In this document: positions 1,385-4,734 of the stretch, piece by piece
Position numbering within the stretch: the stretch's first letter is position 1
Layout of the letters: the number at the start of each line of letters is the position of its first letter
Assembly: GCA_020072805.1 (NCBI GenBank)
Contig: JAIQGC010000015.1
Span: 1-41,943, forward strand
Length of the DNA: 41,943 nt
Reading direction: 5' to 3'
Source of the DNA: Terriglobia bacterium
Lineage (GTDB): Bacteria; Acidobacteriota; Terriglobia; Acidiferrales; UBA7541
Notes under the pieces: generated by a model
Database searches by the model: none
The model's input: the letters and a program-made list of their open reading frames with translations, nothing else
What the model was told of the DNA's origin: nothing
Translations under genes and position numbers: made by a program

Positions 1385-2026
1385 ATGTCGGTTAACGGAA
1401 TCATCGGAATCAAGCTGGGCAGCACGCAGGTCTTCGAAAAAGACGGCACGCTGGTCCCATGCACCGTGCTGCAGGCCGGGCCGTGCGTGGTAGTGGACCG
1501 CCGCACCAAGCTGCGCGACGGTTACGACGCGGCGCAACTGGGCTTGGTCGAATTCGTCAAGCCGCAGCGGGTCAGCAAGGCCATGACCGGGCATTTCAAA
1601 AAAGCCGGCGCGGCTCCCATGAAAGTTCTGCGCGAAGTGCGCCTCGAGGAATCGGCCGACGAAACCAAGGTCGGCGACCGCGTGCTGGTGGACCGCTTTC
1701 AGCCCGGCGAATTAGTCGACGTCACCGGGGTGAGCAAGGGCAAGGGTTTTGCCGGCGGCGTCAAGCGCTGGCACTACGCCGGCGGCGATGCCAGCCACGG
1801 CTCGATGCATCACCGCGCGCCGGGCGGCATCGGCGGCAGCTCCTTCCCCTCGCGCGTGTGGAAGAACCAGCATTTTCCCGGACACATGGGCCATGCCCAG
1901 GTGACCGCGAAAAATTTGAAAGTGGTGCAAGTGGATACGGACGAAAACCTGCTCTTGGTGCGTGGATCGGTTCCCGGGCCGAGCGGGGCGTACATCATGA
2001 TTCGCAAGGTCAGGAAGAACAAGTAA
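1385..2026 (+). CDS. rplC: 50S ribosomal protein L3
   Basis: L3 nucleates 50S assembly and reaches towards the peptidyl-transferase centre. The 213 residues match the usual length. The N-terminus ([13 protein letters not shown]) and the long internal loop with [18 protein letters not shown] and the following [11 protein letters not shown] are diagnostic. A GAGAGAGA purine stretch precedes the ATG at about 10 bases. A 61-base gap separates it from rpsJ, and rplD follows after 33 bases. Confidence 0.97.
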
Positions 2027-2059
2027 GCAACGAATCAGCGCAAAGGAAAGCGAAACGTT

Positions 2060-2854
2060 ATGCCGGTCGTGGATGTAGTGAATTTGAGCGGGAAAAAGGT
2101 CGGCCAGGTCGAACTGGCGGACAGCGTCTTTGGCGCCAAGGTCAACCCGCACCTGGTGCATGAAGCCTCGCGCTGGTATCTGGCGGGGGAGCGCGCAGGC
2201 ACGCACAAAACCAAGGTGCGTTCCGACGTCAGCGGCTCGGGCAAGAAATTGTGGCGGCAGAAGGGCACCGGGCGCGCCCGCATGGGCTCGATCCGTTCCT
2301 CCATCTGGCGCAAGGGCGGCACGGTGCACGGCCCGCAGCCGCGCGATTACAGCTATGCGCTGCCCAAGAAGATGGTGCTGGGCGCGCTGCGCTCGGCGCT
2401 GTCGGCCAAGCTGGCCGCCTCCAAGCTGACCGTGGTGGACTCTTGGGCGCTCGAAACGCACAAGACCGGAGCCTTCCGCGAGACTCTGGACAAGCTGGAC
2501 AGCAAGAAAAAGACTCTGCTGGTGGCCCTGGGCGAGAATCGCAACCTGGTCCTGGCCAGCCGTAACATGGCCGGCGTGACGCTGGTGGCTCCCAACGTAT
2601 TGCAGGCTTACGACCTGCTGCGCCATGACCGCCTGATCTGCTCGAAGGATGCGGCCACGCGCTTGAGCCAGTCGCTCGATCCCGATCGCGTGGAACCGGT
2701 GGCTCCCGTGGTGCTGGAAAGCATCGCTCCGGCGCCTGCGGCCAGCAAAGCGGCGGCAGCTAAGCCGGCGGCCAAGAAAGAGGCCAAGTCCGCGGCGAAA
2801 CCCGCGGCCAAGAAGGCGGCCAAGCCCGCGGGTAAGAAGAAGGGCAAGGAATAA
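2060..2854 (+). CDS. rplD: 50S ribosomal protein L4 with a Lys/Ala-rich C-terminal tail
   Basis: L4 binds 23S rRNA domain I and lines the exit tunnel; in E. coli it also autoregulates the S10 operon. The core contains the conserved RQKGTGRARMGSIRSS tunnel-loop region near residues 68-83 and the GPQPRDYSYALPKKM segment. The product is 264 residues, against about 205 for a typical L4. The excess is a C-terminal low-complexity tail from about residue 223, built of repeated KPAAKK-like units. An AAAGGAAAG stretch before the ATG serves as ribosome-binding site. The tail composition recurs in S19, L22 and L17 here. Confidence 0.96.
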   Translation: MPVVDVVNLSGKKVGQVELADSVFGAKVNPHLVHEASRWYLAGERAGTHKTKVRSDVSGSGKKLWRQKGTGRARMGSIRSSIWRKGGTVHGPQPRDYSYALPKKMVLGALRSALSAKLAASKLTVVDSWALETHKTGAFRETLDKLDSKKKTLLVALGENRNLVLASRNMAGVTLVAPNVLQAYDLLRHDRLICSKDAATRLSQSLDPDRVEPVAPVVLESIAPAPAASKAAAAKPAAKKEAKSAAKPAAKKAAKPAGKKKGKE

Positions 2855-2857
2855 GCC

Positions 2858-3157
2858 ATGGCCATCATCTCTCAATTTCAGATCATTCGCCGGCCCATCA
2901 TCACCGAAAAAGGGCTGGGCGTGAAGGAAACGCAGCACACCGTGGTCTTCGAAGTGGCCGCCGGGGCCACCAAGACGCAGATCAAGGAAGCCGTGCAGCA
3001 GATCTTCAAGGTCAAGGTGGACGCCGTGCGCACCTCGAATTTCAACGGCAAGATGCGCCGCCGCGGCCAGTTTGAAGGCTATCGGCGGGATTGGAAGAAG
3101 GCTTACGTCAAGCTCGCCGAAGGCGAGAAGATGATCGAATACGCGGAGAACCTGTAG
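2858..3157 (+). CDS. rplW: 50S ribosomal protein L23
   Basis: L23 lies at the tunnel exit and is the docking site for trigger factor and SRP. The 99-residue protein has the RPIITEKG N-terminal motif and the KVKVDAVRTSNFNGKMRRRG core, at normal family length. It starts 3 bases after the rplD stop, so translation is probably coupled. Confidence 0.96.
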   Translation: MAIISQFQIIRRPIITEKGLGVKETQHTVVFEVAAGATKTQIKEAVQQIFKVKVDAVRTSNFNGKMRRRGQFEGYRRDWKKAYVKLAEGEKMIEYAENL

Positions 3158-3199
3158 TCGTTCGGGCAGGGGCGGGCGAAGGGAAGACAAGAGGCAACG

Positions 3200-4021
3200 A
3201 TGGGACTGAAGAGTTTTAACCCGTACACAGCGTCGAGGCGGTTCATCACCGTCCTGGACAAGAGCGCCATTACCAAGGAGCAGCCGGAAAAGGCGCTGCT
3301 CGAACCCAAGAAGCGCACCGGCGGACGCAACAGCCACGGGGAAATCACTTCCTGGCACCGCGGTGGCGGGCACAAGCAGCAGTATCGCAAGATCGATTTC
3401 AAGCGCGACAAGGCCGGCATTCCGGCCAAGGTTGCCGCCATTGAATACGATCCCAACCGTTCGGCGCAGCTCGCGCTGCTGCATTATGCCGACGGCGACA
3501 AGCGCTACATCCTCCATCCCATCGGGCTGGAAGTGGGCATGACCGTTTCCACCGGCGAAGGCGCGGACATTCTGCCGGGCAATGCCATGGCTTTCCGGCA
3601 CATTCCCCCGGGCACCATGGTGCATAACATCGAGTTGTATCCCGGCCGCGGCGCGCAAGTGGTGCGCTCGGCGGGCGGCGCGGCGCAACTGCTCAGCAAG
3701 GAAGGCGATCTCGCGCTGATCAAGCTGCCTTCCGGCGAAGTGCGCAAGTTTTCCGTGGACTGCATGGCCACCATTGGTCAGGTCGGCAATCTGGACCACG
3801 AAAACGTGACCTACGGCAAGGCCGGCAGAACCCGCTGGCACGGCAAACGTCCCACCGTGCGCGGCGTGGCCATGAACCCCGTGGATCACCCGCACGGCGG
3901 CGGTGAAGGCCGCGTCAAGGGCAACCACCCGCAGACCCCGTGGGGTTTCCCCACGCTGGGCGCGAAGACCCGGCACAACAAGCGCACGGACAAGATGATC
4001 GTGCAGCGGCGAAAGAGTTAG
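3200..4021 (+). CDS. rplB: 50S ribosomal protein L2
   Basis: L2 bridges the subunits and is needed for peptidyl-transferase centre assembly. The 273 residues match the family. Visible signatures are [11 protein letters not shown] at the N-terminus, [20 protein letters not shown], and the C-terminal [14 protein letters not shown] motif around residues 223-236 with the conserved histidine. AGAGGCAACG before the ATG gives a modest ribosome-binding site. It is followed by an unusual 380-base interval that contains a small unrecognised gene. Confidence 0.98.
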
Positions 4022-4082
4022 TTGAAGAGGTAAGGGATCGGGCGGGCGGAGTTGGTCATCACCGCCCGGCGAGAGAGAAGCG

Positions 4083-4394
4083 ATGCGAGCGACACGCACA
4101 AACCGGACGGCAGTTCGCCGGGCAGGCCGCACCAGCAAGAAAGCGGCGGCCAAGCGCGCGGTGAAGCCGGCAGTCAAGCCGGTGCTGAAGCCGGTGCTCA
4201 AGCCGGCCGAGCCGGCGCTGTATAAGTTGTGCAAGCCGGGCTGGACGGTGGTGGTTGAGCGCGCGCCCAACGCGCAGGGCACGCGGTTTGTTTGTCCGTT
4301 TTGCCCGCAGTCGCACCGTGTTCCCGGGCCGGTGCGGGGATTTAAGAAGATTCGGCGGGCGCAGTGGGGGCGGTTGCGCCGCGTGGAGGAATAG
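4083..4394 (+). CDS. Unrecognised small basic protein with a CPFC motif between rplB and rpsS
   Basis: I do not recognise this 103-residue protein. It is strongly basic. Residues 1-45 are Arg/Lys/Ala/Pro-rich with [17 protein letters not shown]-like repeats. Residues 46-103 look like a compact domain with C50, a CPFC pair (C71, C74) and H78, which could form a small metal site, and then a basic tail ([14 protein letters not shown]). It fills the rplB-rpsS gap, where most bacteria have none. GAGAGAG lies about 6 bases upstream of the ATG, and its TAG overlaps the rpsS ribosome-binding region. A ribosome- or RNA-associated role is inferred from position and charge only. Confidence 0.6.
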
Positions 4395-4401
4395 AGGAAA
4401 G

Positions 4402-4734
4402 ATGCCGCGTTCATTGAAAAAAGGGCCGTTTGTGGACGGCCACCTGCGCGATAAGGTCGAAGGACTCAACGCGCGGAACGAGAAAAAAGTGGTCAAGACC
4501 TGGTCGCGCCGTTCGACGATCGTGCCGGAGATGATTGGGCACACCATCGCGGTGCACAACGGCAGGAAATTCATTCCCGTGTACGTGACCGAACAGATGG
4601 TCGGCCACAAACTCGGGGAGTTTGCCCCTACGCGCACCTTCAAGGGCCATGCCGTAAAGGCGGCGCTCGAGAGGGCTGCCGGAGCGGCACCAGCGGGAGG
4701 CGGCGCGCCGGCAGCGGCAGCGCCGAAGGCATAA
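4402..4734 (+). CDS. rpsS: 30S ribosomal protein S19 with an Ala/Gly/Pro C-terminal tail
   Basis: S19 forms the 30S head with S13 and contacts the A-site finger. The start at 4402 gives the canonical [13 protein letters not shown]-terminus and has GAGGAAAG just upstream; an in-frame ATG at 4255 would add 49 non-homologous residues inside the previous gene. The core has [21 protein letters not shown] and [11 protein letters not shown]. The 110 residues exceed the usual 92 or so because of an Ala/Gly/Pro-rich tail from about residue 90. Confidence 0.96.

Follow-up and report, generated by a model that had tools for sequence, protein, structure and literature searches.

What kind of protein is encoded between rplB and rpsS, deep within the S10 operon of a Terriglobia bacterium? 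In the window analyzed here, a 41,943-nucleotide stretch of contig JAIQGC010000015.1, an open reading frame of 103 codons (4083–4394, plus strand, ATG to TAG) starts 61 nt past the stop codon of rplB (uL2; 3200–4021) and stops 7 nt ahead of the ATG of rpsS (uS19; 4402–4734); both neighbors lie on the same strand and were recognized by translation and comparison. The S10, spc, and alpha clusters are otherwise complete in the window and follow the usual order from rpsJ to rplQ, including rpsZ (uS14), rpmD, and rpmJ, with gene names assigned by reading the translations. Nearby, the 3′ end of tuf (766–985) carries a perfect 110-nt tandem duplication (766–875 and 876–985) which repeats the end of EF-Tu past the stop codon; it may have arisen in assembly, the gene being a repeated one.

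The initial annotation, made from the DNA sequence, described an orphan gene that fills the rplB–rpsS gap, possesses its own ribosome-binding site, and encodes a Lys/Pro/Ala-rich N-terminus followed by a compact domain with C50, C71, C74, and H78. Much of this description holds. The frame is confirmed, homologues occupy the same position family-wide, and the four residues sit where they had been placed. A GAGAG motif lies just 5′ of the ATG (ribosome-binding region, 4065–4082, plus strand), and most homologues have a GAGAG or GGTGAG-type motif at this site. Alignment resolves the protein into an Arg/Lys/Ala/Pro-rich tail of variable length and a gapless 58-residue domain. The label ‘orphan’ has to be corrected, as the gene is a member of a large lineage-restricted family.

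GC-rich DNA yields long chance frames in this region; a 900-codon antisense frame (1712–4414, minus strand) spans rplC to the inserted gene and is interpreted as a side effect of GC-rich third codon positions. The proposal that the inserted gene is itself a non-coding spacer or a spurious frame is refuted by the homologous loci, and we assign it a negligible probability: the C-terminal 58 codons accommodate zero indels and zero in-frame stops in 120 loci (some places having been fetched twice), 63% of the differences fall at codon position 3, and dN/dS is 0.14. Frames broken by indels, or a lack of homologues in related genomes, had been named beforehand as grounds for doubting that this DNA is coding; neither was found, the domain being intact throughout and 70 of 78 family genomes being positive.

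The comparison of nonsynonymous and synonymous change that the initial annotation had proposed likewise demonstrated strong purifying selection on the gene. Pooled pN/pS for the C-terminal domain is 0.22, and the median dN/dS of the 58 codons is 0.138, next to 0.129 for rplB, 0.188 for rplV, 0.079 for rpsS, and 0.084 for rpsC. The values were counted by the Nei-Gojobori method and synonymous sites are nearly saturated, so that they are informative only as a comparison between genes. The domain evolves about as slowly as L2. Pairwise distances for the inserted gene correlate with those for rplB (r = 0.78) to a degree similar to that of rpsS with rplB (r = 0.76); judged from this distance correlation alone, the history of the gene is consistent with vertical descent.

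The distribution of the gene is sharply bounded. Combining a search of 61 relatives with a search of 299 genomes of the class, we found it in 70 of 78 distinct genomes of the window’s family-rank group (Acidobacteria gp2/Candidatus Acidiferrales), and across both searches it was confined to that group. The eight family genomes without the gene also lack a detectable rplB match, so the S10 contig is probably unassembled there. Outside the family, a phylum-wide sample of 297 genomes furnished no convincing homologue; two weak matches (L139 and L140, at 2e-4 and 8e-4) were taken as chance on account of their short alignments, with the DNA inspected for L139 only. Homologues were not found on viral contigs or plasmids. 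A peptide-pattern scan of the named genome collection, which provided the sole coverage of phyla beyond Acidobacteriota, returned 76 loci, with record titles mostly reading Acidobacteria gp2, Candidatus Acidiferrum, Candidatus Acidiferrales, Terriglobia, or Acidobacteria; the few labeled otherwise (Betaproteobacteria, Bacillota) look like mislabeled bins. All family members known here derive from metagenome-assembled genomes.

Gene order is equally strict. The arrangement rplB, inserted gene, rpsS on one strand was observed in 76 of 76 named loci (the rplB match of L087 being only partial) and in 34 genome loci as well. Inspection of rplB–rpsS gaps in Acidobacteriota, another check suggested at the outset, thus separates the family from its surroundings: across 17 genomes sampled from other families of this order and class, the gap measures −4 to 130 nt and the gene is absent; among them is a genome of the nearest family (f2, genome G037), where the gap is 23 nt. 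The most parsimonious account is that the family’s ancestor gained the gene once.

The encoded protein is strongly basic, with a pI of 11.9, 26% Lys and Arg, and a net charge of +23, within the range of its most basic neighbors such as uS14. It is divided into two sections. Codons 1–45 (4083–4217, plus strand) encode the tail, which starts with MRATRT, is basic and of low complexity, varies in length among species, and resembles the tails encoded by rplD and rplV elsewhere in the operon; AlphaFold pLDDT is about 40–50 over residues 1–40, and the tail is accordingly predicted to be disordered. Total homologue length ranges from 97 to about 149 residues, with start codons chosen by us. Codons 46–103 (4218–4391, plus strand) encode the conserved domain, which is predicted to be β-rich and ends in a basic segment (GFKKxRRxQWxxLRRV). 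Across 77 loci the invariant residues are C50, G53, W54, V56, T67–C74, S77–V80, G82–F87, and R100, and they include all four of the ligand-type residues C50, C71, C74, and H78.

A first AlphaFold run modeled most of the domain with pLDDT 80–89 and five strands (residues 44–48, 54–59, 67–70, 77–80, and 84–89). When the domain was modeled alone with a deeper alignment of 52 homologues, confidence was lower (pLDDT about 61), and the fold is therefore provisional. In the model, C50 comes after the first strand, and the two cysteines of the CPFC motif come after another strand, whose successor has H78 at its start; this arrangement is a plausible metal site, and the protein possibly binds zinc.

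Searches for relatives did not connect the domain to any known family. No Pfam profile exceeded its curated cut-off (the best for the window protein, DUF7560, scored 14 bits against a cut-off of 27), NCBIfam and PHROGs gave no match, and a PDB sequence search returned no significant match and no link to known ribosomal proteins. Foldseek and VIA-align found no fold match in the PDB. The profile search for the C-terminal residues that had been recommended initially thus leaves a domain conserved across the lineage family, with sub-threshold matches to short CPFC-type zinc-ribbon segments only (Elf1, L37Ae, and DUF7560/DUF7836). A paralogue of bL36 or uS14 was rejected, with hhalign probabilities of 1.4% and 0.6%, respectively, against the window’s own bL36 and uS14. 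No description of this protein was found in a search of the literature on the gene or its context.

The gene is presumably translated from the S10 operon mRNA. Its stop codon precedes rpsS by 6–9 nt in nearly all close relatives, a spacing that favors coupled translation. Among homologues, the spacer that follows rplB is between 47 and more than 300 nt long. A scan for the sigma-70 consensus detected no promoter- or terminator-like site between rplB and the gene.

We also queried the ribosomal context for a vacancy that the protein might fill. A stand-in for lost bL31, bL32, bL33, bL36, uS14, or uL30 was rejected, as every one is present: bL36, uS14, and uL30 are encoded in the window, and bL31, bL32, and bL33 in genome G000 and most relatives. 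A family-specific rRNA expansion was rejected for 23S rRNA: when the molecules of three family genomes were compared with those of E. coli and three acidobacterial outgroups, no indel of at least 4 nt set the family apart. For 16S rRNA, compared with E. coli and one acidobacterial outgroup, the differences lie in variable regions. Neighboring ribosomal proteins show just single family-specific residues or one single-residue indel. At rplB codon 253 (3956–3958), most outgroups have Arg and the family has Leu throughout, a possible co-adaptation with the adjoining inserted gene. Two irregularities emerged among the rRNA loci: the 23S rRNA L149 (G000:C96:7132-10045) lacks 46 nt including the sarcin-ricin loop, which the five others compared possess, most likely through an assembly error and otherwise very unusual; and the 16S rRNA matches L158 and L159 (G000:C29) adjoin each other and cover model positions 9–1387 only.

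Taken together, a model for the inserted gene emerges. The initial annotation had suggested a lineage-specific ribosome- or rRNA-associated protein, or an assembly factor co-expressed with L2 and S19, and strict synteny, restriction to one family, ribosomal protein-like evolution, basic charge, and the invariant Cys/Cys/Cys/His set favor a protein of this type. In combination, its location, conservation, charge, and tail point to a ribosomal protein before any other identity, and we consider it probable that the gene codes for a ribosomal protein specific to the Acidobacteria gp2 lineage. We lean, more cautiously, toward the fuller proposal of a zinc-binding structural protein of the ribosome, gained once in the gp2 ancestor, inserted between uL2 and uS19, and fixed groupwide. 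The S10 operon mRNA would yield the protein alongside L2 and S19; its 58-residue domain would form a small β structure, probably around one zinc held by C50, C71, C74, and H78; the invariant basic segments TRF, SHRV, GPVRGF, and RRxQWxxLRR, along with the disordered tail, would bind rRNA; and the protein would be a stable, additional structural part of mature ribosomes. We infer zinc binding, rRNA binding, and stable residence. The gene shows features expected of ribosomal proteins: it is encoded with ribosomal protein genes, is under strong purifying selection, appears from the distance correlation to be vertically inherited, and specifies a basic protein with an rRNA-binding-type tail. Also counted in favor are synteny at 76 of 76 loci, absence only where rplB is undetected, a ribosomal protein-like rate, and the invariant ligand set. 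Counted against it are the failure of sequence and fold searches to link it significantly with any ribosomal protein, the modest confidence of the structure model, the missing family-specific 23S indel that might mark a docking site (few rRNAs having been compared), and the identical genomic signature that an assembly factor in the same operon would leave.

That last point introduces the main rival. A lineage-specific assembly factor would associate only temporarily with rRNA while the subunit matures, perhaps in the vicinity of L2 or S19, and would then be released; the operon position, basic charge, and conserved compact domain fit it equally well. A low-complexity basic tail and synthesis from the S10 mRNA are more often traits of structural ribosomal proteins, and the long Arg/Lys/Ala/Pro tail and S10 origin of the inserted gene therefore weigh, modestly, against an assembly factor, which we judge unlikely. 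Decidedly more doubtful is an RNA-binding regulator acting on the S10 operon, through autogenous feedback at the mRNA or through antitermination of transcription. Such a regulator would be encoded within the operon that it controls and could employ a basic, probably zinc-binding domain; however, no regulatory site was found, the spacer upstream of the gene is far from constant, and a fixed family-wide position with a uL2-like rate better fits a structural role. Lower still we place a zinc-ribbon-like nucleic acid-binding protein of non-ribosomal function, co-expressed merely for high yield. The sole sub-threshold profile matches do point toward zinc ribbons, but they span about 17–20 residues with non-significant E-values, and the strict family-wide placement of the gene between two ribosomal protein genes speaks for a function in the ribosome.

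The ribosomal protein proposed here would most likely be a new family of a known kind: lineage-specific and possibly zinc-binding. PMC10764239 describes as open the question of how lineages and ribosomes acquire new proteins. A gene fixed family-wide within a highly conserved operon and absent in sister families offers a bounded, testable case of protein gain by the ribosome, as well as a sharp marker for this group of uncultured soil Acidobacteria. In the excerpted text of PMC10618245, bL37, bL38, and bS22 are small ribosomal proteins limited to some bacterial lineages; bL37 is known from mycobacteria, and Borrelia bS22 and bL38 went unannotated until seen in ribosome structure density. As described there, bS22 is highly basic, like the protein of the inserted gene; the presence of all three in the ribosome has been demonstrated, whereas the present protein is known from genes alone. 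The PDB sequence search gave no link to any of them, and neither the rplB–rpsS operon position nor a Cys/Cys/Cys/His set is described for them in that excerpt.

The zinc-type ribosomal proteins (bL36, bL31, bL32, bL33, and uS14 of the C+ type) are likewise short and basic with conserved Cys/His residues, and some are encoded in the same gene cluster as the inserted gene. The ligand spacing differs, being C-x20-C-x2-C-x3-H in the inserted gene’s protein and C-x2-C-x12-C-x3-H in the window’s bL36, and profiles of the window’s bL36 and uS14 reveal no relationship to it. With the Elf1 and L37Ae zinc ribbons the protein shares a CPFC-type knuckle following a β strand; only about 17–20 residues align (E 0.04–1.3), and the protein has no second CxxC knuckle.
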